Positions 1,743-16,173 of a stretch of 50,831 bases of DNA are shown piece after piece. The stretch lies in IMG/VR virus record IMGVR_UViG_3300030419_006331, positions 1-50,831 of that record; one strand, written 5' to 3'. The notes beneath the pieces are model-generated. The model worked only from the letters and a program-made list of their open reading frames with translations, was not told where the DNA came from and made no database searches. Every line of letters starts with the position of its first letter. Position 1 is the stretch's first letter. The DNA is from a virus. A program made the translations under genes and the position numbers.

Positions 1743-2993
1743 ATGTCAGATAAAATCAAGATCTTTACGATCAGTGACCACCCTCTTTCCCCTTCTGGGG
1801 TTGGCACCCAAACCAAGTATATTATTGAGGGGATGCTGAAGACAGGAAAATACCAGTTTGTAAGCTTCGGAGGCGCCATCAAGCACCCCAATCATCAACC
1901 CCAGAAAACCGAACAATGGGGTGAGGACTGGATCATATGGCCCGTTGATGGGTATGGCAATCCTGACATGGTCCGGGCAATGATCTATCAGCAGAAGCCG
2001 GATATTCTTTATTTCATGACGGATCCTCGCTTCTACGACTGGTTATGGTCCATCGAAAACGAGATCCGCGCCAATGTGCCTATGGTCTATTACCACGTTT
2101 GGGATAACTATCCTTATCCTATGTTCAATCGACCTTGGTACTTGGCCAACGATCACATTGCTAGTATTTCCAAACTAACTCACGATATTGTTGAAACAGT
2201 TGCACCAGAGGTTCAGAGTTCTTATCTGCCACATGCTGTGGATGGGGAGGTTTTTAAGATTCACGATCCAACAGAGGTAAAGAAGTGGAGAACCCAGAAG
2301 GGGTTTGATGACAAATTTGTGTGTTTTTGGAATAACCGGAATGCACGCCGAAAGCAGTCTGGTACGCTTATTTGGTGGTTTAAGGATTTCCTCGACCGCG
2401 TTGGGCACGATAAAGCTTGTCTTATCATGCACACAGACGTTAAAGATATGCATGGGCAAGACCTAGAGGCTATCATTCATGAGCTGGGGCTCACTAGTGG
2501 ACAGGTACTTTTTTCCCGCGAGAAGGTGTCTTCGGCAGATCTTGCTAACATCTATAATATGGCCGATCTGACTATTAATATTGCGGACGCAGAGGGTTTC
2601 GGACTAGGAACTCTAGAATCGCTTTCGTGTGGAACACCAATCTTAGTAACGATGACGGGAGGCCTACAGTTTCAGGTAACCGATGGGGAACAATGGTTTG
2701 GAGCCGGTCTGCAGCCATCCTCGAAGGCTATTATTGGATCCCAGGCGGTTCCTTATATCTATGAAGATCGGGTGAACAAAGGTGAGTTCGTGGATGCATT
2801 AACCAATCTATATGAGATGGGCCCTGAGCAACGTGCGAAGATAGGTGCTGCAGGCCGTGAGTGGACTCAAAAGGAGTTTAGTTTTGACGACTTCATCACC
2901 AGATGGGATGAATTGTTTACAAAGATCCACGAGGAGCAGGGATCTTGGGAAAGTAGGACCGGATACCAGTCCTACGGAGTGAGGACCTTTTAA
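1743..2993 (+). CDS. GT-B fold glycosyltransferase (GT4/GT1-like)
   Basis: This 416-residue protein has the two-Rossmann-domain layout of GT-B enzymes. The N-terminal strand KIFTISDHPLSPSGVG carries the glycine-rich acceptor-side loop. The C-terminal domain carries EGFGLGTLE (near residues 284-292), the E-x7-E motif of GT4 enzymes that contacts the nucleotide sugar, followed by SCGTPIL. It is preceded by AGGAGACTAG, a good ribosome site. It opens the glycan cassette and ends exactly where the next glycosyltransferase begins. Donor and acceptor are unknown. There is no membrane segment, so it is probably cytoplasmic or peripheral. Confidence 0.85.
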   Translation: MSDKIKIFTISDHPLSPSGVGTQTKYIIEGMLKTGKYQFVSFGGAIKHPNHQPQKTEQWGEDWIIWPVDGYGNPDMVRAMIYQQKPDILYFMTDPRFYDWLWSIENEIRANVPMVYYHVWDNYPYPMFNRPWYLANDHIASISKLTHDIVETVAPEVQSSYLPHAVDGEVFKIHDPTEVKKWRTQKGFDDKFVCFWNNRNARRKQSGTLIWWFKDFLDRVGHDKACLIMHTDVKDMHGQDLEAIIHELGLTSGQVLFSREKVSSADLANIYNMADLTINIADAEGFGLGTLESLSCGTPILVTMTGGLQFQVTDGEQWFGAGLQPSSKAIIGSQAVPYIYEDRVNKGEFVDALTNLYEMGPEQRAKIGAAGREWTQKEFSFDDFITRWDELFTKIHEEQGSWESRTGYQSYGVRTF

Positions 2994-4274
2994 ATGAAAA
3001 AAAGAGTATTAGTTAGGGGCCCTGCATTGTCCCGGTCTGGCTACGGAGAGCAGTGCAGGTTCGCCCTGCGGGCCCTTCGAAGCAGGCCAGATCTATTTAC
3101 AGTGTTTATAAAAAACATGCCCTGGGGTCGTACAGGCCAGATTAGTATGGATGCAGAGGACTATGGGTGGATAACGAAAAATATATTATATACCGACGAA
3201 TATATTAAGCAGAAGGGGCAGTTTGATATAGCTATTCCGGTTACCGTACCAAATGAGTTCGAACGACTTGCTCCTCTGACAATTGGGTACACTGCGGGCA
3301 TCGAAACCACCAAGGTTGCACCCGAGTGGCTACAAAAAGGAAACACCACCGTAGATAAAATGATTGTAGTTTCGCAACACTCGAAGAAAGTGTTCGAAAA
3401 CACCAGATACACTCTACAGCGCCCCGACGGCAGCGCCGCCGGAGAATTAACGTGCCAGGTCCCGGTGAATACAGTCAATTACCCTGTGAGGACTACAGAG
3501 GCGTCACCTGTCGCTATAGAATTTACGACAGACAAAAACTTTTTAGTTGTATCGCAATGGGGCCCCCGCAAGAACGTTGACAATACGATTCGCTGGTTCG
3601 TTGAGAAGTTTAAAGACGATGAGCGCGTCGGCTTAGTTCTTAAAACCAACACTGCATCTGACTCTATCGTAGATAGAGAGCTGACGATGAGGAGAGTAGA
3701 AAATATCCTATCTCCATACGAAGAGCGCAAATGTAAGGTGTATGTGGTTCACGGCGAACTAACGCCAGGAGAGTTGACTTGGTTGTACCAGCACCCTACC
3801 ATGAAAGCTTTGATCAATATCGGCCATGGCGAAGGATACGGTCTTCCGCTCTTTGAGGCAGCGTACAATGGGTTGCCTTTGATTACTCTCCCATGGAGTG
3901 GGCAGATGGACTTTATTTGCAAGCCTAACAAGAAGGGTAAGAACTATCCCCGAATCATCCGCGTAGACTACGATATGAAAAATGTACAGAAGTCTGCTGT
4001 GTGGAAGGGGGTAATCCAAGCTGATGCTATGTGGGCATTTGCCAAGGAGACATCCTACAAGCGCGCCCTAGGCGAGGCCCTCGAAAAGGAAACACATTAT
4101 CGCAAAGAGGCTGCAGCCCTTCGAGATCATATTCTAGAGAATTTCACCGAGGAGAAGATTTACGCTGACTTTGTTGACAGCGTTTGGAATCCGACAGAAG
4201 AAGAGATAGAAGAGATGAATCAAGAGGCATTCGCTGCATCTTCCGATTTGCTAGCCGGAGTTACATTACTATGA
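2994..4274 (+). CDS. GT-B fold glycosyltransferase
   Basis: A 426-residue glycosyltransferase. The N-terminus has VRGPALSRSGYG (acceptor-side loop) and the C-terminal domain has EGYGLPLFE (near residues 280-288), another E-x7-E nucleotide-sugar motif, followed by NGLPLITLPWSG. The ATG directly abuts the stop of the preceding gene, and the 3' end overlaps the next gene by ATGA, so the three transferases are probably coupled. Its sequence differs substantially from the upstream GT-B protein, so this is a distinct enzyme rather than a recent duplicate. Specificity cannot be deduced. Confidence 0.85.
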   Translation: MKKRVLVRGPALSRSGYGEQCRFALRALRSRPDLFTVFIKNMPWGRTGQISMDAEDYGWITKNILYTDEYIKQKGQFDIAIPVTVPNEFERLAPLTIGYTAGIETTKVAPEWLQKGNTTVDKMIVVSQHSKKVFENTRYTLQRPDGSAAGELTCQVPVNTVNYPVRTTEASPVAIEFTTDKNFLVVSQWGPRKNVDNTIRWFVEKFKDDERVGLVLKTNTASDSIVDRELTMRRVENILSPYEERKCKVYVVHGELTPGELTWLYQHPTMKALINIGHGEGYGLPLFEAAYNGLPLITLPWSGQMDFICKPNKKGKNYPRIIRVDYDMKNVQKSAVWKGVIQADAMWAFAKETSYKRALGEALEKETHYRKEAAALRDHILENFTEEKIYADFVDSVWNPTEEEIEEMNQEAFAASSDLLAGVTLL

Positions 4275-4936
4275 CCGCACCGGTGGGGATCATTCAGATC
4301 ACTTCGCAGGCCACAAACCCAGCCCGGTTTAGCCTACTCAAAGATCGCATAGTTCCCGCTTTGATTGACTCCTCAGAGGGCAATTACACACTAGTGTCGC
4401 CTCCAAACGAGGAGCTTCGAGCTACCGTCACTCAGCTGGGTGGGCAGTTCAAAGAGTACACCGGCTGGGAAGTGGACAAGAACAGAAAATTCCGAGAAGG
4501 AATTCCCCAGCGCCAAGAGGCCTGGGTAGCCTTTTTAGATGACGACATTCTTCCTGATGAAGAGTGGATGGATTCCATGAAGGGGTATCTTGAAGATAAA
4601 GCGCCTGGTCAGTACGGATTTAGACTGACAGACGATGCAGGGAGCCGTCATGAATTTGGTGAAGATTGGATGCAATTCGCTAGCCCAAAGTTTGGTTTAC
4701 GACATAGGGGCTTAAAGTATGATGTCGCCACTGGATATATTGAGCAGTCCCCCACGGCATATGTGTCCAATTCTTTTATACACAAAGATGTGTTCAACTA
4801 TGTTCAGCCATTTGGGTTGTTCGGAAAAGCGCCAGATGTTTCATGGTGTTTTGCCATAAAGCAAGCAGGTTTTCCAGTGGGATTTAATGTCCACGCGCGC
4901 GCGTACCACCTTGGTGATCGTAAGGATAATCGATGA
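4271..4936 (+). CDS. GT-A family glycosyltransferase (GT2-like)
   Basis: A 221-residue protein with FLDDDILPDEEW (Asp90-Asp92), matching the DXD metal/nucleotide-sugar motif of GT-A enzymes and the LDDD style of GT2. The later WCFAIKQAGFPV resembles the ED-x-D-L..R..G acceptor region. The open frame extends further upstream (from 4184), but the ATG at 4271 overlaps the previous stop as ATGA and gives a normal GT-A N-terminus (strand IIQITS), so it is preferred. The protein is shorter than usual GT2 enzymes (about 250-330 aa), so it is a minimal catalytic domain. Sugar donor unknown. Confidence 0.75.
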   Translation: MTAPVGIIQITSQATNPARFSLLKDRIVPALIDSSEGNYTLVSPPNEELRATVTQLGGQFKEYTGWEVDKNRKFREGIPQRQEAWVAFLDDDILPDEEWMDSMKGYLEDKAPGQYGFRLTDDAGSRHEFGEDWMQFASPKFGLRHRGLKYDVATGYIEQSPTAYVSNSFIHKDVFNYVQPFGLFGKAPDVSWCFAIKQAGFPVGFNVHARAYHLGDRKDNR

Positions 4937-5790
4937 TTTTAGTAACCGGCGCCGCCGGTTTTATCGGGAGTTGTTTAACAGCCGAGCTACGAGAAGGCGT
5001 GGTATGCAGCGACCCCCGAGACGAGAGCATGCTGACTCCCGAAGAGGCAGTGCGCTATATACAATTACAAGACAACATTGAGGTCGTTTACCATCTGGGG
5101 GCAATATCGTCCACCACCGAGACCAATATGTTGGCGCTAGCTCAGAATAATATCGAATACAGTCTCAGACTTCTCTATTTGTGCTTAGAAAAAGGAATTC
5201 CGTTTGTTTATGCATCATCTGCTTCGGTGTATGGCGCCGCTGCAGGAGTGCAGCGTGAGGATCAGCCGTTAGCACCGATCAATGGGTATGCCATAAGTAA
5301 GGCTTCTTTTGATATGTTTGTAGGCCAAATCATATCTCTTTCGCCGAGCGCACAAATATATGGCTTACGTTATTTTAATGTTTATGGACATCGAGAACAT
5401 CACAAAAAAGACATGGCCAGCCCTGTACATAAGTTTACAATGCAGGCCCGGGATACCGGAAAAATTAAAATATTTGAAGGAAGTGACAAGTACCGGCGCG
5501 ATTTTGTTCACATTGATGATGTTGTAAAGATGACGATCGCCGCGAGTAAATTTACGCAACCCGGAGTCTACAATGTAGGTACCGGGGAGGCTAGTTCGTT
5601 TGCCGAGGTAGCTAGACTTATAGCGGCCGCTACCGGCGCTGAAATCGAGGAGATTCCCTTCCCGGACCATCTTAGAGGAAAATACCAAACACATACGTGC
5701 AGTGATAATACAAAAATTACCAAAGTAGGGTACACGGATTCTCGGAGTGATTTGGGGACCGGCATCAAAAAAACCTTGGCATTGATATGA
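4933..5790 (+). CDS. hldD: ADP-L-glycero-D-manno-heptose 6-epimerase-like NAD(P)-dependent epimerase
   Basis: A short-chain dehydrogenase-type epimerase of 285 residues (bacterial HldD is about 310). It shows the Rossmann GxxGxxG (GAAGFIG, residues 6-12), the YxxxK catalytic pair (Tyr119, Lys123 in GYAISK) and YASSASVYG. HldD-specific-looking stretches are HLGAISSTTE, RYFNVYGHREHHKK and KYRRDFVHIDDV, which match the heptose epimerase pattern (SSTTE, FNVYGPRE, FKRDFVYV) better than UDP-glucose 4-epimerases. It should convert ADP-D-glycero- to ADP-L-glycero-D-manno-heptose. The next two genes encode the HldE-type activities, which supports this reading. The ATG overlaps the previous stop. Confidence 0.82.
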   Translation: MILVTGAAGFIGSCLTAELREGVVCSDPRDESMLTPEEAVRYIQLQDNIEVVYHLGAISSTTETNMLALAQNNIEYSLRLLYLCLEKGIPFVYASSASVYGAAAGVQREDQPLAPINGYAISKASFDMFVGQIISLSPSAQIYGLRYFNVYGHREHHKKDMASPVHKFTMQARDTGKIKIFEGSDKYRRDFVHIDDVVKMTIAASKFTQPGVYNVGTGEASSFAEVARLIAAATGAEIEEIPFPDHLRGKYQTHTCSDNTKITKVGYTDSRSDLGTGIKKTLALI

Positions 5791-6185
5791 CCACAGTCTT
5801 CATTAATGGGTGCTTTGACATTTTGCATCGGGGGCACTTAGAGTTGTTTAAATATGGAGCAGCGCTGGGTACCCAACTGATAGTTGCAATAGATTCAGAC
5901 CAGAAAGTACGAGAAGCTAAAGGTCCCAATCGTCCCATTAATAATGTAGAGGATCGAAAGTTTATGTTATTATCTTTGCGATACATAGACGAAGTAAGGG
6001 TGTTTGATACCTCGGAAGAGCTTGTTGAGACGGTTCGGTCGGTCACTCCTGATATAATGATTGTGGGCTCTGACTGGAAAGGGAAGCCTATCGTGGGCGG
6101 CGAATATGCCCAAGAAATCAGATATTTTGAGAGGATAAATGGATACTCCACAACCAATATTATTCAAAGTATTAGTGATAGGTGA
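5787..6185 (+). CDS. HldE C-domain-like heptose-1-phosphate adenylyltransferase
   Basis: A stand-alone nucleotidyltransferase of 132 residues, the size of the C-terminal domain of bifunctional HldE/RfaE. It begins with NGCFDILHRGH, containing the HxGH nucleotidyl-transfer motif. It continues with LIVAIDSD, RPINNVEDR and VGSDWKGKPIVG, and ends with YSTTNII, the adenylyltransferase equivalent of the HldE STTNII signature. Predicted reaction: D-glycero-beta-D-manno-heptose 1-phosphate + ATP to ADP-heptose + PPi. It is encoded before, not fused to, the kinase. It overlaps the epimerase gene by 4 bp and the kinase gene by 47 bp. Confidence 0.82.
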   Translation: MTTVFINGCFDILHRGHLELFKYGAALGTQLIVAIDSDQKVREAKGPNRPINNVEDRKFMLLSLRYIDEVRVFDTSEELVETVRSVTPDIMIVGSDWKGKPIVGGEYAQEIRYFERINGYSTTNIIQSISDR

Positions 6186-6909
6186 TGCATGCACAGATCG
6201 CTATTGCTATGGCGACGTGACAAGGCTCAGCCCTGAAGCGCCCGTCCCTATTTTAAAGCACCTGTACACCGAGGAGCGCCCGGGCATGTGCTTAAACGTG
6301 GGCGCTAATCTAGAGGCTTTCGGGGTTGAAGTCACTATCCTTAAGAACTCCGAGATGCTCTATAAAGATCGGTTTGTAGACACCAAAACTAAGCAGCACC
6401 TTCTAAGAGCAGATTTTGGAGAGAGTGAAAAAGTGCAGCCTCCCAACAAGAGCGATATAGCTGTTAACTCTTATGACGCCGTAGTGGTGTCTGATTATGA
6501 TAAAGGGTTTGTTTCTCGGGAAATAGCGGAAGAGATATCCAAGCAGTGTCGTGACTCCGCTATCCCGTTGTTTGTGGACTCTAAGAAAAAAGATCTGACA
6601 TGCTATCAGAATTGTTTTATCAAAATCAACGAGAAAGAGAAAAAAGAATTACTCGCTTACTCCAAAAGCAGCGACCTTATAGTTACGTTGGGTTCTCGGG
6701 GAGCCATATGGAATCAAACGCTGTACTCTACCCATGAATGCGAAGTATTTGATGTTTCTGGTGCAGGAGATACTTTTATGGCCTCGATGGTTTGGAAGTA
6801 CCTAGCCACCAAGAGCATGCCTGAGTCTCTTAAATTTGCTAACCACTGTGCTAGAATAGTGGTGCAGAAGTTTGGTACATACTGTTTAAAGAAGGAAGAT
6901 CTGGAATAA
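6139..6909 (+). CDS. HldE N-domain-like heptose-7-phosphate kinase (PfkB family)
   Basis: A ribokinase/PfkB-fold sugar kinase of 256 residues, about 60 shorter than the E. coli HldE kinase domain. HldE-like landmarks are VIGDACTDRYCYG, RLSPEAPVP, EERPG, VVSDYDKG and the catalytic DVSGAGDTF. The usual PfkB GGAAN stretch reads GMCLN here, and two loops are shortened. The ATG at 6139 is 47 bp inside the previous gene but follows GAGAGG by 5 bp and gives the conserved N-terminus, so it is accepted. Predicted role: phosphorylation of heptose 7-phosphate at C1, the step before phosphatase and adenylyltransferase. Confidence 0.8.
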   Translation: MDTPQPILFKVLVIGDACTDRYCYGDVTRLSPEAPVPILKHLYTEERPGMCLNVGANLEAFGVEVTILKNSEMLYKDRFVDTKTKQHLLRADFGESEKVQPPNKSDIAVNSYDAVVVSDYDKGFVSREIAEEISKQCRDSAIPLFVDSKKKDLTCYQNCFIKINEKEKKELLAYSKSSDLIVTLGSRGAIWNQTLYSTHECEVFDVSGAGDTFMASMVWKYLATKSMPESLKFANHCARIVVQKFGTYCLKKEDLE

Positions 6910-6910
6910 T

Positions 6911-7237
6911 ATGAACTATGTGTTTGATATAGATGGTACAATTTGCACTATAACGGATGGGGACTACGCTAAAGCCCGGCCTCTCCAGTTGCGAATTGAT
7001 CACATAAATCGCCTGCACGACGAAGGCAATACGATAGTCTTTCAGACAGCTAGAGGTATGGGTCGCACCAATAACAATCTTCAATTGGCTTATGATCTGT
7101 TTTATGAGCTTACCAAGCAACAGCTTGATGAGTGGGGAGTAAAATATGATGCCTTGTTTTTGGGGAAACCTTCGGGGGATTTGTATATTGACGACAAGGG
7201 CATCAGCGACGAAAGGTTCTTCACCGATGCCTCCTAA
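6911..7237 (+). CDS. HAD-superfamily phosphatase of the sugar/capsule type
   Basis: A 108-residue HAD protein. Motif I is FDIDGTIC (nucleophile Asp6, acid/base Asp8), motif II is FQTARG, and the C-terminus has LFLGKP and IDDKG for the Lys and acidic motifs. This small, capless form is typical of phosphatases found in capsule and LPS gene clusters. Placed directly after the kinase, adenylyltransferase and epimerase genes, it is a candidate for the heptose 1,7-bisphosphate phosphatase step normally done by GmhB. It lacks the DRDGV form of classical GmhB, so this role is inference from context. Confidence 0.7.
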   Translation: MNYVFDIDGTICTITDGDYAKARPLQLRIDHINRLHDEGNTIVFQTARGMGRTNNNLQLAYDLFYELTKQQLDEWGVKYDALFLGKPSGDLYIDDKGISDERFFTDAS

Positions 7238-7970
7238 CTCCCCTAAGTCTGCCGACAGTCCCCGGACCCCCCGTCTGCTGGATCCTCGAAAAATCGATAA
7301 TAAGATATTTCAAACAAGTTGGTGGGCAGATGAGTTAAGGTACTATACTACCATAGGCCACACTCTATGGATAAAGAACCCTAAGTGTGCTTCCACCTCC
7401 GTGGCTCATGGTCTGGGCATACTACCGCGCCCCAAAAGCCATATAGCTGATGCTCAAAGATTGGATGAAATTGATCTTAGCCAAGTCACCAATGCATTGA
7501 TGGTGGTGCGAAACCCTTATGATAGGCTGCTCTCCTGCTATCACGATAGAATAAAGGGGGGCCGAATGAGGGGGTATGAGTCATATGCGCGCAAGAGTTT
7601 TGCGGATTTTGTCGATATAGTGTGCGAGAAAACCGATGAGTACGCAGATCAGCACTTTAGAAGTCAACATACATTTTTAGCTGGCCTGCCTCCGCATATA
7701 AATATTTATATCTTTTACGCGGAATCGCTGAATAGGGAGTGGGGAAACTTTGTAGACCTCCTAGACCTAAGTTCATTGGGTGCGAAAGAACAGAAAAGAA
7801 TTAAATCAGGAATCTCGCCACGTCTTGGGCGACATAAGCGAAGCGGGGGAAGAAGACCGAGCAGAAAAAGACGATTAGCCAGCCAAGTGTATGAAAGCAA
7901 TCCCGAACTAGTGAAAAAAGTAGAACAAAGATATAAACGAGATTTAGAGTTATTTGAATATTCATTCTAA
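7227..7970 (+). CDS. carbohydrate sulfotransferase (Sulfotransfer_2-like) 1
   Basis: A PAPS-dependent sulfotransferase of 247 residues. The 5'-phosphosulfate loop is NPKCASTS (residues 51-58) and the 3'-phosphate-binding motif is VRNPYDRLLSCY (residues 94-105), the best-conserved pair in this superfamily. The ATG at 7227 is chosen over the upstream open frame because it lies 10 bp after GAAAGG, overlaps the HAD gene by only 11 bp, and starts just before the domain. A strongly basic stretch (around residues 195-215) precedes the C-terminal helix. It should transfer sulfate from PAPS to a sugar hydroxyl; the acceptor is unknown. Confidence 0.8.
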   Translation: MPPNSPKSADSPRTPRLLDPRKIDNKIFQTSWWADELRYYTTIGHTLWIKNPKCASTSVAHGLGILPRPKSHIADAQRLDEIDLSQVTNALMVVRNPYDRLLSCYHDRIKGGRMRGYESYARKSFADFVDIVCEKTDEYADQHFRSQHTFLAGLPPHINIYIFYAESLNREWGNFVDLLDLSSLGAKEQKRIKSGISPRLGRHKRSGGRRPSRKRRLASQVYESNPELVKKVEQRYKRDLELFEYSF

Positions 7971-7994
7971 GGAGAACCCAATGAAAACTTCTTT
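7968..7994 (+). repeat. 27-bp direct repeat, copy 1
   Basis: A 27-bp stretch starting at the last bases of the first sulfotransferase stop codon is repeated without mismatch at 8720-8746. It holds the ribosome site AAGGAGAACCCA and the first five-plus codons (MKTSF/L) of the cupin gene. The two copies flank the second sulfotransferase gene exactly. This copy is not followed by the rest of a cupin gene, so it is the duplicated remnant. Confidence 0.9.
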
Positions 7995-8061
7995 TAAATG
8001 CATAGAAAGGAATAGAAATTATGAGCGATTCACGTCCTGCAAAGAGAGCGAGACTTATTAA
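7981..8061 (+). pseudogene. relic of the cupin gene start (26 codons)
   Basis: The ATG at 7981 follows a perfect copy of the cupin gene's ribosome site and reads MKTSF, as the cupin gene does (MKTSL). It then loses all similarity and stops at TAA 8059-8061. The strong ribosome site probably still initiates translation of this 26-residue reading frame, which overlaps the start of the following sulfotransferase gene (8021) by 41 bp. It may help couple that gene to upstream translation. I read it as a leftover from insertion or duplication of the sulfotransferase gene, not a functional protein. Confidence 0.6.
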
Positions 8062-8722
8062 GGCAGTGGTGAAGACCCGCCAGCAGACTCAAAAAACAGT
8101 TATTTTTATAAGAATTCACAAAACAGGCACCACCACTATCAATGATTGGTTGTTTCCTGGCGGTCATTATCCTCATATGTTGCCTGCCTATATACAAAGG
8201 TCATTATCTGAAAAAGAATGGGAAGAGGCATTTAAGTTTACCTTTGTGCGGAATACCTATGATAGACTTGTGTCTGTGTTCAGTGATTTTAGTGACACCA
8301 CGACGCCCCCGCGCCATTGCACTGCGTATTATCAAAGATATTTTGATAAGACCAGGGACCAAAAAAAAGCATTTGCCCGGTGGGTCCAAGATGGGTGCAT
8401 ATCTCACCTATCTGTGTTAAATCCCAAGCGCTCAGACCAGAAAAACAATTTCCTTCCAAAGCGGCCGATGATGCTCGCAGAGTGGCTTGTAGACTCCGAG
8501 GGGAAAGATTATTTAGATTTTATTGGGCGTTTTGAAAGCTTAGAACAAGATATGTTTTCTTTAAATAAGAAGTTAAACCTCAATCGGAAGGAAAGTGTCT
8601 TCCCGCATAAGAATAGAAGCAGACGCGATCAGGATTATAGGGTTTACTATACCGAAGAAACAAAGGCGATTGTTGATGAAATTTTTCAAGATGAAATAAC
8701 AAAATTTGGATTTCAATTTTAA
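8021..8722 (+). CDS. sulfotransferase family protein 2
   Basis: A 233-residue sulfotransferase. The PAPS 5' loop is RIHKTGTTT (residues 31-39), the 3' motif is FVRNTYDRLVSVFSD (residues 75-89), and IGRFESLEQD lies in the C-terminal half as in carbohydrate sulfotransferases. The N-terminus is basic (RPAKRARLIK). The gene is bracketed by a 27-bp direct repeat, so it appears to have been inserted between the first sulfotransferase and the cupin gene. It differs clearly from its neighbour, with a different P-loop and low overall identity. The acceptor sugar is unknown. Confidence 0.8.
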   Translation: MSDSRPAKRARLIKAVVKTRQQTQKTVIFIRIHKTGTTTINDWLFPGGHYPHMLPAYIQRSLSEKEWEEAFKFTFVRNTYDRLVSVFSDFSDTTTPPRHCTAYYQRYFDKTRDQKKAFARWVQDGCISHLSVLNPKRSDQKNNFLPKRPMMLAEWLVDSEGKDYLDFIGRFESLEQDMFSLNKKLNLNRKESVFPHKNRSRRDQDYRVYYTEETKAIVDEIFQDEITKFGFQF

Positions 8723-8746
8723 GGAGAACCCAATGAAAACTTCTTT
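8720..8746 (+). repeat. 27-bp direct repeat, copy 2
   Basis: This is the second copy of the perfect 27-bp repeat, 752 bp after the first. It spans the end of the second sulfotransferase stop codon, the ribosome site AAGGAG and the first codons of the intact cupin gene. Because this copy runs into a full gene, it is the parental one. Confidence 0.9.
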
Positions 8747-9092
8747 ACCAATTAATTTTGTCCCCAAAGGTTGGGGATTTGAAAAGTGGATCGTAAACTG
8801 TGAACAGTATTGTGGTAAATTACTGTATTTTGCAAAAGGCAAAAAGTGCTCATGGCACTACCATGAGATTAAAGACGAGGTATTCTACATTCAGTCCGGA
8901 AGAATCCTAGTAAGGTATTCTGATGGGGATGAACTAGAAAAAGCTGAGGAGATTATCCTGGAGCCAGGAGACAATTTCCATGTTTACACAGGTCTGCGCC
9001 ACCAGATGGAAGCACTACAGGACACGGAGTTGTTTGAATTCTCCACCCAGCACTTTGATTCCGATAGTTATAGAATCGTTAAAGGTGATTGA
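8733..9092 (+). CDS. cupin-domain protein (phosphomannose isomerase type II-like)
   Basis: A single-domain cupin of 119 residues. Cupin motif 1 is complete: HYH (His42, His44), then Glu49, then Gly56 at the expected spacing. His90 in GLRHQM supplies the fourth metal ligand of motif 2. The start at 8733 follows AAGGAG by 6 bp, so a longer open frame from 8706 is rejected. Such cupins in glycan clusters act as sugar isomerases, epimerases or small accessory proteins; which applies here is unknown. The stop is directly followed by the GTG of the next gene. Confidence 0.75.
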   Translation: MKTSLPINFVPKGWGFEKWIVNCEQYCGKLLYFAKGKKCSWHYHEIKDEVFYIQSGRILVRYSDGDELEKAEEIILEPGDNFHVYTGLRHQMEALQDTELFEFSTQHFDSDSYRIVKGD

Positions 9093-9974
9093 GTGAAAAA
9101 AGTTCTTTTTGTGGGGGTTTTTACCCCTAACTCTACAAACGTGGCCCAAGCCCGGGCATTTGTGGCAAATAACTGTAAAGTCTATGCGTATGATTATCGC
9201 GCAAAGCGTCAGCAGCTGGGAAGTATTTCCGCGAGGGATCAAAATCTGATCGAGATGATCAGAGAAATACAGCCTGATCTTAGTGTGTTTAGTAAATGCA
9301 ACGATATGCATCACTCGGTTGTATCCGAAGCGTCCAAAGTAGGAAAGACGGTCTTATGGTATATGGATGCAATGAATAACTTTAATTCGGAGCTAATTGC
9401 AAAAGTAAAAAATTGCCATTCGTTCATTTGTGGGCTCGAAGGAGTTGTCGAAGCTGGGCTGGAACATAATGAGAATACGATTTTCATTGACCAGTGCCCA
9501 GATGACGAAATGAATTTCTATATCCCGGATTGCGAGAAAAAGTATGAAGCAGTTTTTATTGGCAACATCAACGCCAACGTCCACAGGGATAGGGTAACCT
9601 ACAAGCGTAAGTGTAAGTTTCGACACATGAGTGGTGTTTATGGGTTGGAGCACAACCGAATCGTAAATGAAACAATAATTAATCTGGGCTTTGCACCAAC
9701 CGACAAGACTGGCACCTCTGTGCGCGCACATAAAATTCTTGCCGCCCGCGGCTTCTATATGACTACTCCGTGGCCAGGAATGGAAAAGACGTTCATTCCC
9801 GACGAGCATTTGGTTGTATTTAATTCTCCTGCGGAACTAACACAGAAAATGAAATATTACCTGAACAATCCAGAGGAACGAGAAAGAATTGCACTCAACG
9901 GACATAAAGAGGTTCAAAAATATATGCCTCAACAGTGGGCACAAAGGATTCTGGCTCACATGGGATTAAAGTGA
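9093..9974 (+). CDS. CgeB/YkvP-like glycosyltransferase
   Basis: A 293-residue protein starting at a GTG directly after the cupin stop. The N-terminal half is a divergent Rossmann domain (VLFVGVFTP). The C-terminal half has VRAHKILAARGFYMTTPWPG and a PEERERIALNGHKEV helix, the typical ending of CgeB-type (Glyco_trans_1_2) glycosyltransferases. The N-terminus of these enzymes is often degenerate, as here. It overlaps the next gene by 4 bp (GTGA). Donor sugar unknown; a cytoplasmic location is expected from the absence of a signal or membrane segment. Confidence 0.75.
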   Translation: MKKVLFVGVFTPNSTNVAQARAFVANNCKVYAYDYRAKRQQLGSISARDQNLIEMIREIQPDLSVFSKCNDMHHSVVSEASKVGKTVLWYMDAMNNFNSELIAKVKNCHSFICGLEGVVEAGLEHNENTIFIDQCPDDEMNFYIPDCEKKYEAVFIGNINANVHRDRVTYKRKCKFRHMSGVYGLEHNRIVNETIINLGFAPTDKTGTSVRAHKILAARGFYMTTPWPGMEKTFIPDEHLVVFNSPAELTQKMKYYLNNPEERERIALNGHKEVQKYMPQQWAQRILAHMGLK

Positions 9975-10732
9975 AGAAAGCTTTGTTTCTTTATTGGCAT
10001 GGACTTGGCGACGTTATTATGCTGACGCCGTTGTTGAGATATCTGCATAACAATGGATACACAACGGATCTCCTCTGTAGGGAGTCTGTGCGCTCGTCTA
10101 AGCTGCTCGATGACTGCCCCTACGTAGATGACCTTATAATGGTAGAAAACCCCTGGAGATCGCCCCTAGGATTCTCTAAACAAGTGAACGAAAACGTGGC
10201 TAAACTGAAACAACTTGCGCCGGCATACGACTGGTCTGGCGGAGCGTTACACACAGGACAATTCTCCGATAAAGTTCGCCGCAACTTTGGCGAAAATGGG
10301 TTTATCTGCAACGACCTGGACTTAGAGGTATTTATTCCCGCCCACATCGAAGAAGAAGTGACCCAGCATGTGGCGCAGAACTATCCTAATGGATTTATCT
10401 TTAATCACACAAAAATCGAATATCACAAAAATCATGACTGGGATAGTTCAGAGTGGATAGCGCAGAATCTCCCAAAATTACCAATTGTAGATACGGGCTA
10501 TGATGGCAACTATTATAGAAAGTGGGAGGATATTCGCTATACTTTTGCGCTCATCCGACACGCCAGTCACAGAGTTGTATCTTCCTCCGTATTCGTTCAT
10601 GTTTGTGACGCTTTAAGGCTGCCGATTGATGTAGTAAACTATGGAACACCCGATAGAAAAGTGTGGCCATATGATCAAGAATTGATGTTGAGAATAAGAG
10701 AAAAAGGTAAATGGATAAAACAAGCCACTTAG
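9971..10732 (+). CDS. GT9-like (ADP-heptose:LPS heptosyltransferase-like) glycosyltransferase
   Basis: A 253-residue protein with an N-terminal LGDVIMLTPLLRYL, the GxGD(x)xLTP-type loop at the start of GT9 heptosyltransferases. The C-terminal SSSVFVHVCDALRLP takes the place of the GT9 donor-site segment (usually a Ser/Asp-rich loop followed by H-x-A/C-x-A-L-x-x-P). The GTG at 9971 overlaps the previous stop as GTGA; the longer open frame from 9935 would begin inside the upstream gene. With HldD/HldE-type enzymes nearby, ADP-heptose is the natural candidate donor. It is shorter than E. coli WaaC/WaaF (about 320-350 aa). Confidence 0.7.
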   Translation: MKKALFLYWHGLGDVIMLTPLLRYLHNNGYTTDLLCRESVRSSKLLDDCPYVDDLIMVENPWRSPLGFSKQVNENVAKLKQLAPAYDWSGGALHTGQFSDKVRRNFGENGFICNDLDLEVFIPAHIEEEVTQHVAQNYPNGFIFNHTKIEYHKNHDWDSSEWIAQNLPKLPIVDTGYDGNYYRKWEDIRYTFALIRHASHRVVSSSVFVHVCDALRLPIDVVNYGTPDRKVWPYDQELMLRIREKGKWIKQAT

Positions 10733-11328
10733 ACGAAAACGGACTCGACCCTCGACACGCATCTATAATAGATGCTCTTCCTGTGTATAAGTCTAAAAAA
10801 GAAGTTCTTGTAGTGGGGTGCGGAAACTGTAAGAAGGACAATGTTCTTAAAAAAATGGGATACGAGGTCACCTCAACTGACTATGTCCCCGAAGCAAAGA
10901 AATATGATTTTCAGGAAAAAAGACTAGCAGCTGGGATGACAGATATCACAATCCATAATGCTAACATATTAGATCTCTCTACGTTCCCCAAGCCACAATA
11001 CGAATCTGTCATATGTGCAGAAGTGTTAGAACATTTGGTGGATTACAAGGTGGCGCTCAAGAATTTACTGTCCCTGTCAGAGCGCCGCTTGATTATAACA
11101 GTGCCATGGCAGTATTCCTTTAACGACACAGCACCCCCTCCAAAGGGTCATTGTAATTTTTGGAATGATAATGGGTCGGCGAACTTCAAAAATATAAATG
11201 AATACAAGGCTCTTTGTGAACCCTACGCCGTTTCCATCCAGAAGATTAGGACCAAGCCTAAAGATGTGCAAATGGGACAGTATAGCTATTTGATTATTGT
11301 GGACAAACAGCAGAAATGGAATAAATGA
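10711..11328 (+). CDS. class I SAM-dependent methyltransferase
   Basis: A 205-residue methyltransferase with motif I VLVVGCGNC, an acidic end of strand 2 (TSTDYVP), a strand-4 motif ICAEVLEHLVDY (the common EVLEH of Methyltransf_11/23 enzymes) and RLIITVPW. It overlaps the GT9-like gene by 22 bp but has its own ribosome site (AAAAAGG). It probably methylates a sugar or lipid-linked glycan given its place between two glycosyltransferase groups, but small-molecule targets cannot be excluded. Confidence 0.78.
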   Translation: MDKTSHLDENGLDPRHASIIDALPVYKSKKEVLVVGCGNCKKDNVLKKMGYEVTSTDYVPEAKKYDFQEKRLAAGMTDITIHNANILDLSTFPKPQYESVICAEVLEHLVDYKVALKNLLSLSERRLIITVPWQYSFNDTAPPPKGHCNFWNDNGSANFKNINEYKALCEPYAVSIQKIRTKPKDVQMGQYSYLIIVDKQQKWNK

Positions 11329-12021
11329 ATGAGAGTATTAATTAGCGGCACCGGTCGCGGCGGAACAAACCTCCTAACAGAATTGGTAAGAAAGATCACT
11401 ACCCTTACATTTACCAAAGATGTGGAAGATAGAAAATTTTTCCTCAAGCCCACCATTAGAGGCAACTACGGAACCAAGCTCACAATGGATCACCCCACCT
11501 TTACGATAGCCCGAGCAAGACAAGCACTTACAACTTACCCCGACCTCAGGATCCTCTTCTCAGTTAGGCACCCGTTGGATAATTGCTTATCGAAAATTGT
11601 ACGCGGACAAAAGGCTTCAGAAGGGGGGGACAAGGTAACTGAGAACATATCAGCTGATGCCACTGTGCCCGCAGCACTGAGCGCTATAGAAGATCTCTAT
11701 CGCTACATCCAGGCTCTAGCATCTACTCATCCTTCGCAGATAGTCGTTGTAAAAATGGAAGATGTCATAACAGACACCGAGAAAGTGGTCGAAGCCCTAG
11801 CTAAGTTTTTAGACATCACGCCATTGCCCTATGAAGGGTTCCAGAGTCACAATAGGAACAAATACCAGAAGTCCCGCTACGGTAACACCCTGGCACCTCA
11901 GACAGACTTGTACAGGGATCTAGATACTAATTTTAGTGGCTTTTATGCTAATAAGCCTGAAATAGTTGAGGCTCTAAATGAGGGATTGAGAGGATATATC
12001 AATGTATACTATGGACGATGA
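11329..12021 (+). CDS. sulfotransferase family protein 3
   Basis: A P-loop sulfotransferase of 230 residues. The loop is SGTGRGGTN (residues 6-14), close to the very start. The 3'-phosphate motif is FSVRHPLDNCLSKI (residues 77-90), and VVKMEDVITDTEKVVEALAKFL is the late acidic/hydrophobic segment seen in Sulfotransfer_1/3 proteins. This form is unlike the HKTGT and PKCAS types encoded elsewhere in the cassette, so at least two sub-families have been recruited. It abuts the methyltransferase stop and overlaps the next gene by 20 bp. Confidence 0.75.
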   Translation: MRVLISGTGRGGTNLLTELVRKITTLTFTKDVEDRKFFLKPTIRGNYGTKLTMDHPTFTIARARQALTTYPDLRILFSVRHPLDNCLSKIVRGQKASEGGDKVTENISADATVPAALSAIEDLYRYIQALASTHPSQIVVVKMEDVITDTEKVVEALAKFLDITPLPYEGFQSHNRNKYQKSRYGNTLAPQTDLYRDLDTNFSGFYANKPEIVEALNEGLRGYINVYYGR

Positions 12022-12670
12022 AATATATGCTAGTGGAACGTTGGGAGACGCTTTTATGATATTGTTAAAAGTTATAGGTAGTCCCGTTAGAAAAATTAAT
12101 CATTTCTCTAAGCACAAATCAGTATACCCCCTTATAAAACAAATTTACTCCCTGTGTCCTCACCTAGAGATCGTGATGCTAGAGAGGAAAAAAGCAGGTG
12201 TGTATGTGCCCGGGCATATTAGGCCTGGGGAAACATATACGGCTCATCCCTCGGTGTATCTTGGTGAGCACTACAAGGGAGATCTGCCGAGAAACTATAG
12301 CGTTCTCCAAATAAAAGGGGGAGCAGCCCCTGGGCGACGTCGACCCGTTCGTCCGGGCGTTTCTGCCAAAGATATTGCGCGCATCGACAAGTCGCAACCC
12401 CTCGTCTTGATTGGGACGGATAATCTATCCTTAGAAACGTTACAAGGATATGATATCCTTGATCTGAGAAATAAGACGTCGCTCCTGGAATGCTTGTCGA
12501 TTATCGCAAGCGCGCAAAGTTTCCATGGACCCCAGGGACTCATGGCATTTTTTGCTTTGAGTCAAAAAGTTCCATCCTACGTTTATCTCAAGACAGATGC
12601 CGATAGGGTGGCTGTCAACGCGCGTATTAAAAAAGTAACAGAGTGGAAAGATTATGTTTGTTATCTCTAA
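12002..12670 (+). CDS. GT9-like glycosyltransferase (minimal)
   Basis: A 222-residue protein. The N-terminus GTLGDAFMILLKVIG recalls the GT9 N-terminal loop. The C-terminus has LRNKTSLLECLSIIASA followed by FHGPQGLMAFFAL, which aligns in pattern with the GT9 donor site (kTSL...l.ia.A...i..dSG.mH.A). The ATG at 12002 is 7 bp after AGAGGA and inside the end of the sulfotransferase gene. The usual catalytic/donor His of HLA is replaced by FFA here, so activity on ADP-heptose itself is less sure. Family call moderate, function inferred. Confidence 0.55.
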   Translation: MYTMDDEIYASGTLGDAFMILLKVIGSPVRKINHFSKHKSVYPLIKQIYSLCPHLEIVMLERKKAGVYVPGHIRPGETYTAHPSVYLGEHYKGDLPRNYSVLQIKGGAAPGRRRPVRPGVSAKDIARIDKSQPLVLIGTDNLSLETLQGYDILDLRNKTSLLECLSIIASAQSFHGPQGLMAFFALSQKVPSYVYLKTDADRVAVNARIKKVTEWKDYVCYL

Positions 12671-12685
12671 TCTAAGGAGTCATGA

Positions 12686-13348
12686 ATGACCCAAGCGCCC
12701 AAATGGCGCAGTCGCCGCAAACCGGACTCGGGCTTTTCTAAAATTTTAGAAAAGTATGTTAAGTCCACTACCCCGCGTGTTTTTATAGAATGCGGTGCCA
12801 ATGACGGAATTAATGGCTCCATAGGTTATTATTTTGAAAATGTACTCGGATGGCATACTATAAACATTGAGGCTAACCCGCTCTCTTGGGGAGATTTAGT
12901 ATACCATCGTCCTCGATCCACCAATCTTCAGATGGGACTATCTGATTCCGATGCCATACTAGATTTTACTTTGCCAACGGATGGACCTAATGGTTCTGCT
13001 CCTGGCCGCGCGAGTTTTAGCAAAACTATGGAGGATTGGCAGGCGGAGAAGAGACGGGCACTCCTTTGTCAAGTGAGATGCACGACCTACCAGCAGATGA
13101 TGTCGGAACAAAACATCTCTGGAGTAGGAATTTTTGTATTAGATGTTGAAGGGTGGGAAGAAAGAGTACTCCAGGGAATGCAGGGTGTTAAACCGTCTCA
13201 CCTTCCACATATTTTCTGTGTTGAAAACAACGACTGCGATTGGACGACAACGACTGCGCTCGTGAAAAAGCTGGGACGCTATGAGGCTGTAAAGCAGCAC
13301 GGCCCCAACCTCATTTACATTTTAAATCAACAAGAAGGAGAAAAATAG
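12686..13348 (+). CDS. FkbM-family methyltransferase 1
   Basis: A 220-residue SAM methyltransferase. FkbM signatures are IECGANDG (residues 34-41, motif I), INIEANPLSW (acidic end of strand 2) and LDVEGWEERVLQGM (the DxEG-x-E motif). The ATG at 12686 is 7 bp after AAGGAG; an ATG 4 bp earlier in another frame is not used. FkbM enzymes O-methylate sugars or other hydroxyls, so methylation of the phage-encoded glycan is the likely role. A paralogue follows at once, with a stop/GTG overlap (TAGTG). Confidence 0.83.
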   Translation: MTQAPKWRSRRKPDSGFSKILEKYVKSTTPRVFIECGANDGINGSIGYYFENVLGWHTINIEANPLSWGDLVYHRPRSTNLQMGLSDSDAILDFTLPTDGPNGSAPGRASFSKTMEDWQAEKRRALLCQVRCTTYQQMMSEQNISGVGIFVLDVEGWEERVLQGMQGVKPSHLPHIFCVENNDCDWTTTTALVKKLGRYEAVKQHGPNLIYILNQQEGEK

Positions 13349-13998
13349 TGAAGATGGTCCCAGATATCCGATACTCTAGAGTTATTGCGAAATTTGTATC
13401 GTCTAGCACGCCTAAAGTTATTATAGAATGCGGCGCCAATAATGGAATTCATAGATCTGTTAATCTCTTTTTTGAAAAGAAGGGAGACTGGAAAACAATT
13501 AACATCGAACCAAATCTAGAGTGTTATGAAGAATTGGTTGTAAACCGACCACACAGTGTGAACTATAATTTTGCTTTGTCGTCACAGCGGGAGACCAAGA
13601 CATTGTACATACCACACTCCAAAATAAGAGCCTATAGGGGTGGAAATGGAACCTTAGTGGAAGCACGCGTGGGAGAATTACAGGAAAAGTACGATATTAC
13701 ACAGTTTAAAGAGCAACAGATTCAATGTGTGACGTATCTGGATATCTTAAAAATGGTCGGGTTGCAATGTGTAGGAATCTTGGTTTTAGATGTTGAGGGA
13801 CACGAGGGGGAAGTTCTAGAGGGAATGATAAGAGATTGTGACCTGAGCCAGTACCCAGAAATATTGGCAATTGAATGTAAAAAAGATAGTGAGAAGACGA
13901 TCGAAACGTTAATAAACGCAACGTCTCTTTACGGCAAATCACGCCGGTACAAAGACAATTTAATTTATAAAAAGGAGGTTATAAATGATAATAAATAA
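13348..13998 (+). CDS. FkbM-family methyltransferase 2
   Basis: A 216-residue paralogue of the preceding gene with the same motif order: IIECGANNG, INIEPNLECYEEL, LVLDVEGHEGEVLEGM. The GTG start at 13348 shares a base with the preceding stop. The proteins match across their whole length but are well diverged, so the duplication is old or the two were acquired separately. They could methylate different hydroxyls or different sugars. A strong AAAGGAGG ribosome site for the next gene lies in its last codons. Confidence 0.83.
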   Translation: MKMVPDIRYSRVIAKFVSSSTPKVIIECGANNGIHRSVNLFFEKKGDWKTINIEPNLECYEELVVNRPHSVNYNFALSSQRETKTLYIPHSKIRAYRGGNGTLVEARVGELQEKYDITQFKEQQIQCVTYLDILKMVGLQCVGILVLDVEGHEGEVLEGMIRDCDLSQYPEILAIECKKDSEKTIETLINATSLYGKSRRYKDNLIYKKEVINDNK

Positions 13999-14644
13999 GG
14001 ACATAGTTTTCCTCCACTTACAAAAGTGCGGCGGAACCTTTATTAAGCATATGATGGAAGATCACATGGGAGCTACCAATCGCCGACCCGAGCATAACGG
14101 TTATCGGGATATTTCGGGAACTAATAAGAAGAAGTTGATAATGGGGAGCATCCGTAACCCTTATAGCTGGTATACGTCGCTGTATTTTAATCACTATCAA
14201 GATCCTAGATCGTTCTTCAAGAGCACATTCCAGGGCGCCCCAACTTTTGCGGACTGGGTCAAAAGGTTTTTAGCAATTGATAGAGGTCGGATGCATGATA
14301 TGCGGTTCTCCCAGATGGCAAGGTGGGACGTCGGTCCTTACACCTTCAGGACTCTCAAATGTTATGCCAGCGCTGAGCCACTCGATATGCCACTGACTCC
14401 CGATATCGTTATGCTGGGGAATATTGAAATAATTAAAACTGATAACTTGGCTCAAAACTTTGTAGATGTAGTAGAGGGAAAGGTGGGAATTAATCCAGAT
14501 GTAAAAGAAAAGATTCTGACAGCAAAGAGAATTCATACATCGGACCACGGACATTATAGTGAATATTATGACCGCGAAGCCTATGATTTGGTGAGTCACA
14601 AAGACAGGCTTATTTTCGATATATTTGACTATGAGCGCGAATAA
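13985..14644 (+). CDS. sulfotransferase family protein 4
   Basis: A 219-residue sulfotransferase with a 5' loop HLQKCGGT (residues 11-18) and a 3'-phosphate motif GSIRNPYSWYTSLY (residues 54-67). It is preceded by AAAGGAGG, one of the strongest ribosome sites in the cassette, inside the end of the FkbM gene. The K-C-G-G-T loop is typical of Sulfotransfer_2/glycan sulfotransferases. It is the fourth, again divergent, sulfotransferase in 7 kb. The last codons overlap the start of the next glycosyltransferase gene. Confidence 0.75.
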   Translation: MIINKDIVFLHLQKCGGTFIKHMMEDHMGATNRRPEHNGYRDISGTNKKKLIMGSIRNPYSWYTSLYFNHYQDPRSFFKSTFQGAPTFADWVKRFLAIDRGRMHDMRFSQMARWDVGPYTFRTLKCYASAEPLDMPLTPDIVMLGNIEIIKTDNLAQNFVDVVEGKVGINPDVKEKILTAKRIHTSDHGHYSEYYDREAYDLVSHKDRLIFDIFDYERE

Positions 14645-15476
14645 GACTTTAGTGGCTGGACCCTGGGTTGGGGAGTTTGGATGGGAACTGTTTGCGTGGC
14701 AGGGCTACATTAGGGCTTTGGCACCTTCGTACGACGAAACGGTCATCATTTGTCGTCCCACCTCATCTCCATTTTATGAAGATTTCGCTACTCACATCAT
14801 TTCCCACGTCCCAACAGGAGGTCCCTCCGATCAATGGTTTCGAAACGGGTACAACCTCCAGGCAAACATAAAGAAAATATTCAAAGAACACACCGCACTT
14901 CTTTCGGGAAGACAGACAGACTTACTTGTCCCTAGACGAATAGGTGTCCCGAACGACGGGAGAACTCACTACTCTGAGGCAGTGTCGGTGGGTAGAACAA
15001 AGGTAATTCCGAAGTATATCCAGTTTGGAACTTGCGCCGACAAAAAATATGATTATGTTTTGCACGCTCGATCCAGAGAAATCCGCCGTGATGACAATTG
15101 GGATATTGCTAAATGGGAAAAACTAGGAAGCTTGCTATCTCAGGGCGGAAAAAGAATTTGCTCTATTGGGATGCCCAACGAGGCACTTCACGTTCCGGGG
15201 ACGATAGATTTGCGGGGAATAGATACGACACAGTTGATAGGAATAATGGCCTCCGCTGATTCGGCATGGGGTCCATCTTCGGGAGCAATGCATCTGGCAA
15301 GCCTGTGCGGCACACCGCATGTGGTATGGTCCCAGCAATCCAATCGAAGAAGATATACCGATAGCTGGAATCCCCTGGGTACCCCGGTCCTGTTTCTAGA
15401 CAAGTATAAGTGGCACCCAGAACCAGAGTATGTGTACGAAGAATATGAACAATGGGATAAATCCATTAAAAAATAA
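14631..15476 (+). CDS. GT9-like glycosyltransferase
   Basis: A 281-residue protein ending the cassette. The N-terminus VAGPWVGEFGWELFAWQGYIRAL carries a glycine/Glu-rich loop seen in a family of glycan-cluster transferases. The C-terminus has IDLRGIDTTQLIGIMASA and WGPSSGAMHLASLCGTP, which closely follows the GT9 donor-site signature (Gpdsg..HlA...gtP). The ATG at 14631 is preferred over a TTG 6 bp upstream; both lie within the end of the sulfotransferase gene. Heptosyl transfer is plausible by family and context, though other hexosyl donors are possible. Confidence 0.62.
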   Translation: MSANKTLVAGPWVGEFGWELFAWQGYIRALAPSYDETVIICRPTSSPFYEDFATHIISHVPTGGPSDQWFRNGYNLQANIKKIFKEHTALLSGRQTDLLVPRRIGVPNDGRTHYSEAVSVGRTKVIPKYIQFGTCADKKYDYVLHARSREIRRDDNWDIAKWEKLGSLLSQGGKRICSIGMPNEALHVPGTIDLRGIDTTQLIGIMASADSAWGPSSGAMHLASLCGTPHVVWSQQSNRRRYTDSWNPLGTPVLFLDKYKWHPEPEYVYEEYEQWDKSIKK

Positions 15477-15918: not shown

Positions 15919-16173
15919 TTGCCGCGCTATCAATACAAGTGTGGGGAATGTAGCGAAGATCTCGTAGTCGCACACCTATCGACTGAAACTTTAGAGGATT
16001 GCCCCAAATGCGCTTCTCACGGCTCACTTACTAAGCAGCTGACAACCTTTAGGACAACCACCTCTAAGAGCAATACTCGGTCCCTAAAAGTTGGAGAAGT
16101 CACAGAGGAGTTCATCGAAGACTCCAGAGCAGAACTACAACAACAGAAAGAGGAATTAAAAAACAAATGCTAA
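15919..16173 (+). CDS. FmdB-type zinc-ribbon protein
   Basis: An 84-residue protein starting at a TTG that directly follows the preceding stop (GAGAAG lies 9 bp upstream). The N-terminus PRYQYKCGEC...CPKC is a zinc ribbon with Cys8, Cys11, Cys28 and Cys31, in the form of the FmdB family. The C-terminal 45 residues are a charged helix. Such ribbons often bind nucleic acid or RNA polymerase. Its place two genes before the late sigma factor allows a role in transcription, but this is inference. Confidence 0.7.
   Translation: MPRYQYKCGECSEDLVVAHLSTETLEDCPKCASHGSLTKQLTTFRTTTSKSNTRSLKVGEVTEEFIEDSRAELQQQKEELKNKC

Follow-up and report, generated by a model that had tools for sequence, protein, structure and literature searches.

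What the large clusters of lipopolysaccharide (LPS) genes do in marine myophages is a question that dates back to 2010 or earlier; a paper of that year could not decide whether they are functional or ballast (PMC3037559). The question is raised again by 19 genes at positions 1743–15476 of the IMG/VR virus record IMGVR_UViG_3300030419_006331; the window analysed here is that entire record (50,831 bases), which is probably a fragment of a larger genome. An initial annotation had read these genes as a phage-borne cassette that makes or decorates a sulfated, methylated and possibly heptose-containing glycan, and the gene content bears this out: the 19 genes are collinear on the + strand with short overlaps, and classification gave the same tally of seven glycosyltransferases, four heptose-type proteins, one cupin, four sulfotransferases and three methyltransferases. 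They appear to be one allele of a glycan island whose genomic position is constant throughout a clade of T4-like myophages from the sea.

A fixed slot with a constant glycosyltransferase pair

The exonuclease and the gp55-like late sigma factor (gp55) that border the cassette both flank an island of about 12–22 kb in 17 other IMG/VR records; in complete records the slot measured 16–24 kb, except for smaller ones near 12–14 kb. Interiors of 18 complete or partial islands were compared; with few exceptions, complete islands begin with the glycosyltransferases GT4a and GT4b and end with an FmdB-like protein, a small open reading frame (ORF) and gp55, and the middle differs. Across all complete islands, identity to the window copy was 60–80% for GT4a and 38–66% for GT4b. 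A profile search with GT4a yielded at least 589 IMG/VR stretches with relatives, the best 80 of which were examined as further loci; GT4b lay downstream of GT4a in 79/79 of these and the exonuclease directly upstream in 76/79. In 69 loci, distances of GT4a and GT4b were correlated with those of the exonuclease (Mantel r 0.77 and 0.70, respectively; 0/2000 permutations), while genes past GT4b were common to two loci in 2% of cases on average (at ≥50% identity), with a median of zero common downstream genes at a GT4a distance of 0.2–0.3. Because the GT4 distances track the exonuclease and the downstream genes are scarcely common, GT4a and GT4b are inherited with the phage backbone, and the remaining 17 genes form a cassette whose content is almost entirely replaced from one relative to the next. 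Six other islands likewise encode sugar-related enzymes; by Pfam, they contained epimerases, GDP-mannose dehydratases, aminotransferases, cytidylyltransferases, glycosyltransferases and methyltransferases. Constant exonuclease and gp55 borders, a constant glycosyltransferase pair and a variable interior together mark a conserved phage island.

An assembly error, which the initial annotation had named as a possible refutation should the block turn up in bacterial chromosomes, is ruled out because the slot, its borders and the first two genes recur in many independent viral contigs; the 19-gene block was not encountered at any bacterial locus. PMC3037559 conceded that such genes might be ballast without a function in large cyanophages. 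For the island this would agree with the high turnover of content, but the frames are open, catalytic motifs are kept in the four sulfotransferases, the kinase, HldD and GT4a, two genes are vertically conserved and a slot of the size given above is retained in complete records; this explanation was judged highly improbable.

Acceptor of the glycan

The initial annotation had left the target undecided between host surface, virion and DNA. Polytopic membrane proteins were sought by a hydropathy scan, which as a control gave 6 segments in E. coli WbbH and 9 in RfbX; none was found among 406 ORFs of the fetched interiors or 747 ORFs of the 80 loci, and just five small ORFs in these two sets had two predicted segments. 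No membrane protein resembling an initiating phosphoglycosyltransferase, flippase, polymerase, ligase or ATP-binding cassette (ABC) exporter was present in about 100 islands, and the cassette of the window likewise has no polytopic ORF. Without polytopic proteins, the islands do not qualify as assembly loci for capsule or O-antigen, which are defined by a membrane flippase, polymerase, exporter and initiating transferase. A secreted or lipid-linked polysaccharide, for which the cassette would make a capsule or O-antigen repeat, is disfavoured on these grounds and was considered improbable, although the HAD protein resembles the EcbF/BcbF capsule phosphatase and sulfated capsules are known from marine bacteria. 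None of the seven glycosyltransferases of the window has predicted membrane segments, as would be expected of the soluble enzymes of virion glycosylation. The lack of membrane assembly proteins therefore points to soluble enzymes that assemble the glycan on an acceptor accessible from the cytosol, i.e. LPS core, protein or DNA.

A phage protein is the favoured acceptor because GT4a and GT4b descend together with the phage backbone, because this pair recurs beside the nuclease in Flavobacterium and Microcystis phages and, with a weaker match, in Rhodothermus phage RM378, and because the closest solved relative of both enzymes is B736L of the chloroviruses, which glycosylate their capsid in the cytoplasm. 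For GT4a, in which the EX7E motif and K204 are invariant, the profile match to B736L covered the whole length (E = 2e-17), and B736L was likewise the closest solved protein to GT4b (2e-11). On this basis, a virion protein was given an even chance of being the acceptor. GT4a and GT4b would then act in the cytoplasm, where they would initiate or prime a sugar chain on a phage-supplied acceptor, most likely a virion protein; the cassette would provide an activated heptose-type sugar by means of the kinase, the HAD phosphatase, the nucleotidyltransferase, HldD and possibly the cupin as isomerase, and would add further glycosyltransferases, three of them GT9-like, with four sulfotransferases and three methyltransferases as finishing enzymes. 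The particle would thus bear a short glycan of heptose type with sulfate and O-methyl groups, different from phage to phage, which could shield the particle from binding or degradation, or change adsorption. A tentative extension, held at somewhat under an even chance, is that the slot is a widespread, so far undescribed virion-glycosylation island of marine T4-like phages, in which the GT4 pair primes a structural protein and exchangeable cassettes give each phage an individual coat in a manner resembling antigen variation.

Several points weigh against a virion acceptor. The GT4 pair across host phyla comprises three isolates only (27–36% identity), and soluble cytosolic enzymes also extend LPS core, so that the absence of membrane proteins cannot discriminate between virion and LPS core. 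Moreover, the LPS inner core is where GT9 and HldD/HldE enzymes classically act. Host LPS core, or a lipid-linked precursor, could thus be extended or decorated at the cytosolic face and exported via host MsbA/Lpt, and the altered surface would block superinfection or aid release; core LPS requires no phage flippase or polymerase, and fast turnover suits competition between phages. Similar clusters of cyanophages and pelagimyophages have been interpreted as LPS or capsule modification (PMC3037559, PMC7824862, PMC7029224), and PMC7019647 assigns no role to B736L itself. However, the GT4 pair is vertical in the clade and occurs in phages of different phyla; it therefore does not follow one host type, and this fits a phage-borne acceptor better than the varied host cores. 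The benefit in a lytic infection would also be short-lived, and LPS core was regarded as a possible acceptor with a probability well short of even.

DNA hypermodification, in which the glycan would sit on modified phage bases as protection against restriction, was considered because phages do, as is generally known, glycosylate DNA, because GT4a scores to PF20706 (GT4-conflict) and because the related phage immuto has DpdA and QueF, a different DNA modification. The PF20706 score was, however, lower than that of the generic GT4 model, and a thymidylate-synthase-family (hydroxymethylase-type) gene was absent from 21 records (up to 203,859 bases), which are partial. A Tet/JBP search gave no match, but as its control gave none either, it carries no weight. 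We know of no precedent for a 19-gene sulfated product on DNA, and only a slight probability was assigned to this explanation.

Were a virion protein the acceptor, a very large number of phages in the ocean would each carry a sugar coat of their own. The fixed slot with its constant, vertically inherited pair offers a handle, as the constant pair would predict the acceptor, and the cultured relatives immuto and Mel-JY01 make the acceptor question testable. Two very long ORFs were noted in the structural region of the window, at 19759–24972 (1737 amino acids) and 30241–39888 (3215 amino acids); either may encode a tail or fibre protein, and both are candidates for the glycan acceptor.

Gene content and assignments

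Pfam families scored over the cut-off for 12 of the 19 proteins (GT4a, GTB3, HldD, HldE-C, PfkB, two Sulfotransfer_2, Sulfotransfer_3, MT11, two FkbM and the cupin); GT4b, GT2, ST4, HAD and the GT9-like proteins at 9971 and 14631 are supported chiefly by homologues or motifs. Better start positions were obtained for five genes (4271, 7227, 8733, 9971 and 14631). The G+C content was 44.6% in the cassette versus 47.4% in the remainder of the record.

Table 1. Genes of the island and its borders, with positions in the window and the matches used for assignment (PAPS, 3′-phosphoadenosine 5′-phosphosulfate).
Feature	Positions	Strand	Evidence
RecB/Cas4-like PD-(D/E)XK exonuclease, conserved left border	955..1734	+	PF12705 3.5e-11; PHROG 69 exonuclease
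GT4a, core glycosyltransferase 1	1743..2993	+	PF00534 2e-10
GT4b, core glycosyltransferase 2	2994..4274	+	PHROG 2170, 5e-11
GT2-like (GT-A) glycosyltransferase, variable part begins	4271..4936	+	weak PF00535 E=0.05; DDD motif
HldD-like ADP-heptose 6-epimerase	4933..5790	+	TIGR02197, 1eq2
HldE C-domain-like heptose-1-phosphate nucleotidyltransferase	5787..6185	+	PF01467 2e-17
HldE N-domain-like heptose-7-phosphate kinase	6139..6909	+	PHROG 8133, 285 bits
Small HAD phosphatase, GmhB role proposed	6911..7237	+	PHROG 1238 4e-27; DxDGT motif
Sulfotransferase ST1	7227..7970	+	PF03567 6e-18; PAPS motifs KCASTS, RNPYD
Sulfotransferase ST2	8021..8722	+	PF03567 5.5e-9; PHROG 3347 galactose-3-O-sulfotransferase 3e-14; PAPS motifs
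Cupin, possible aldose-ketose isomerase replacing GmhA	8733..9092	+	PF07883 1.6e-9
GT-B glycosyltransferase (Glyco_trans_1_2)	9093..9974	+	PF13524 2e-20
GT9-like (heptosyltransferase-like) protein a	9971..10732	+	profile to 3tov GT9 E=1.3e-3
Class I methyltransferase	10711..11328	+	PF08241 2e-8
Sulfotransferase ST3	11329..12021	+	PF13469 1.8e-11; PAPS motifs
GT9-like protein b, assigned by eye only	12002..12670	+	C-terminal GPxGxM-like motif
FkbM O-methyltransferase a	12686..13348	+	PF05050 1.4e-12; TIGR01444 over cut-off
FkbM O-methyltransferase b	13348..13998	+	PF05050 1.9e-14; TIGR01444 over cut-off
Sulfotransferase ST4	13985..14644	+	PF03567 2.3e-4, below cut-off; PAPS motifs KCGGT, IRNPY
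GT9-like protein c	14631..15476	+	PF01075 E=0.02; WaaC by profile only E=0.39
FmdB-like zinc-ribbon protein, start of conserved right border	15919..16173	+	PHROG 1076 2e-5
gp55-like late sigma factor, right border	16462..17148	+	PHROG 234 4e-5

Homologues in other islands were found for the GT2-like gene (65% identity, at the matching position in L082, L086 and L088), the GT-B glycosyltransferase (33–36%, four islands), GT9-like protein c (44–46%, four islands) and the class I methyltransferase (40%, L079). The GT9 assignments of the three GT9-like proteins are weak. For protein a, Foldseek returned 3tov as best match, followed by WaaC, which lends weak support because the AlphaFold model is poor (predicted local distance difference test, pLDDT, 44; low-confidence); protein b had no significant match in Pfam, PHROG and NCBIfam searches and an uninformative model (pLDDT 41).

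Sugar activation

HldD is the firmest assignment in the heptose set and has the features of a 6-epimerase: its TIGR02197 score was 267.2 bits (cut-off 274.6), the next family (219 bits) is also HldD, and 1eq2, an ADP-L-glycero-D-mannoheptose 6-epimerase, was the best solved match with the YxxxK and HK motifs aligned. The other members had a heptose family as best match, yet below cut-off. The best NCBIfam match of the putative nucleotidyltransferase was TIGR02199 (110 bits, cut-off 181.5), and its best solved matches were cytidylyltransferases. The kinase gene, whose 47-base overlap with the preceding nucleotidyltransferase gene is kept in L079, encodes a predicted heptose-7-phosphate kinase domain with an invariant GAGD motif; TIGR02198 was its best NCBIfam match (165 bits, below the curated cut-off) and heptose-7-phosphate kinase 4e84 its best solved match. 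The HAD protein scored best to the EcbF-BcbF capsule phosphatase (44.6 bits, below cut-off) and is EcbF/BcbF-like rather than GmhB-like. The PHROG 1238 family, which includes PSSM2_311 of P-SSM2, is labelled phosphoheptose isomerase; the members encountered in this analysis, however, are HAD proteins of small size that contain DxDGT, and the label looks like a misannotation.

By orthologues, the ADP-heptose pathway is not complete as had been supposed, since none of 26 records yielded a GmhA-type isomerase (SIS_2) above the cut-off. Within the set, conservation is highest for the cupin, which is 58–82% identical to cupins encoded next to HldE genes, among them that of P-SSM2, and keeps its metal motifs, and its best solved matches were D-lyxose and L-ribose isomerases (E = 7e-4 and 3e-3), enzymes that interconvert aldoses and ketoses. 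Given these matches and the missing GmhA, the cupin may replace GmhA; this is possible, yet on balance unlikely, and the presence of the cupin without a kinase in L080, L198 and L219 counts against it. Otherwise, heptose-7-phosphate could come from the host supply.

L079 and L095 carry HldD, the two HldE-like genes, HAD and cupin in the order of the window (65–82% identity), and among the 80 best GT4a loci about ten have a more distant form of the set. In L078 (3361–9551) the HldE-like nucleotidyltransferase, kinase and cupin genes are present twice, one set near that of the window and one distant. Outside phages, the closest kinase relatives were 40–41% identical. Early scans of viral contigs with a single kinase or sulfotransferase sequence as query gave no match. 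The best of the kinase relatives outside phages is in L105 (PAZU01000047.1, assigned to a Euryarchaeota metagenome-assembled genome, MAG), but a bacterial chromosome origin was rejected as the gene order of this contig follows that of cyanophage S-CAM3, and the contig is probably phage DNA placed in the wrong bin; L107 (Thaumarchaeota MAG) also carries the heptose set and may likewise be misbinned.

Sulfation

Both PAPS-binding motifs are kept in 4/4 sulfotransferases of the window. HAD and cupin are adjacent in L079, L095 and L195, so that ST1 and ST2, which stand between them in the window, look inserted. Sulfotransfer_2 matches were obtained in 11/61 records, with one or two per record outside the window; the window has three Sulfotransfer_2 proteins and one Sulfotransfer_3 protein. 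Four is the highest number seen, in agreement with the initial view of the sulfotransferases as the unusual element, and the counts are lower bounds because the records are incomplete. Sulfotransferases are recurrent passengers of the islands. A literature search for a phage paper combining sulfotransferase, FkbM and glycosyltransferase found none.

Phage backbone

Homologues of the exonuclease were found 5′ of the island in 17 records (50–88% identity), those of the FmdB-like protein in nearly all islands (45–60%) and those of gp55 in 26/32 records (53–92%). Rightward, the FmdB-like protein is followed by gp55, an amidase and then the baseplate genes gp25 and gp6. The cassette had been placed beside baseplate genes; these are recognisable, but begin about 11 kb beyond the nearest right neighbours. 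The gp6 protein had 76 relatives in viral contigs, while full-length relatives in cultured phages (Microcystis and Flavobacterium phages) were only about 30% identical; the clade is therefore without a close cultured member in the collection compared. No close relatives at the DNA level were found in phage records, and psbA, a photosystem gene and sign of a cyanobacterial host, was not found in 21 records. An ORF with a zinc-peptidase-like HELAHS motif (345–968) lies directly upstream of the exonuclease. A 443-amino acid protein with a C-terminal Amidase_2 domain (17401–18732), encoded after the sigma factor and before the baseplate genes, is probably a tail-associated cell-wall hydrolase.

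Relation to described systems

So complete a set had been thought unusual for a phage; the same heptose set is present, however, in cultured cyanophages, and related phages from the sea carry it at the corresponding position. Cyanophages P-SSM2, S-SSM7, S-SM2 and S-CAM3 share the nucleotidyltransferase, kinase, HAD, cupin and HldD (kinase 45% and cupin 58–63% identical to the window), and cyanophage clusters likewise combine soluble sugar enzymes with glycosyltransferases (PMC3037559, PMC7824862). As the set occurs in related islands and in cultured P-SSM2 and S-CAM3, such a phage cassette is of a known kind. T4-GC 304, 305, 307 and 308 were described as LPS genes co-occurring in three phages, whether functional or not being unknown (PMC3037559), cyanophage clusters with these genes as capsule modification (PMC7824862), and such clusters were read as surface modification against superinfection (PMC7029224, PMC7824862). 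The cyanophage set differs from that of the window in that it adjoins tail-fibre genes, with HldD on the opposite strand and a carbamoyltransferase present, and lacks the GT4a/GT4b pair (no cyanomyophage was among the GT4a matches), whereas the window has the fixed exonuclease-to-gp55 slot and four sulfotransferases. The host-recognition islands of pelagimyophages, which are also marine T4-like phages, are similarly hypervariable, with many glycosyltransferases and rfaE; they differ in containing tail fibres, and a sulfotransferase and a constant GT4 pair are not mentioned in PMC7029224.

Virion glycosylation by phages has been described for mycobacteriophages, in which phage-encoded glycosyltransferases are reported to decorate capsid and tail tube (Freeman 2023, as cited in PMC12619734). 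The gene sets are much smaller than that of the window. Heptose or sulfate is, to our knowledge, not known from these virions. Chloroviruses (PBCV-1, NY-2A) glycosylate their capsid protein with their own soluble cytoplasmic glycosyltransferases, including a methyltransferase step or domain (PMC7019647), and B736L is related to GT4a and GT4b, with homology at the level of the GT4 subfamily only; the system differs in belonging to a eukaryotic virus and in its N-linked glycan of other sugars, without sulfation.

In Flavobacterium phage immuto and Microcystis phage Mel-JY01, a PD-(D/E)XK nuclease, GT4a and GT4b (about 31% identity) are arranged as in the window, and the islands continue with GT2, aminotransferases, methyltransferases and an epimerase; they differ in that no heptose set or sulfotransferase is annotated. 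In Mel-JY01 (L102, 14995–16486) the GT4a homologue is annotated as two ORFs, which may reflect a frameshift or sequencing error. The cassette had been put forward as an undescribed system: its heptose-type part is already known from phages. Three features appear to be new in relation to the literature consulted: a constant slot whose GT4 pair is inherited vertically, present in a large clade of marine phages and in some cultured phages; the cassette-exchange pattern; and the four-sulfotransferase allele.

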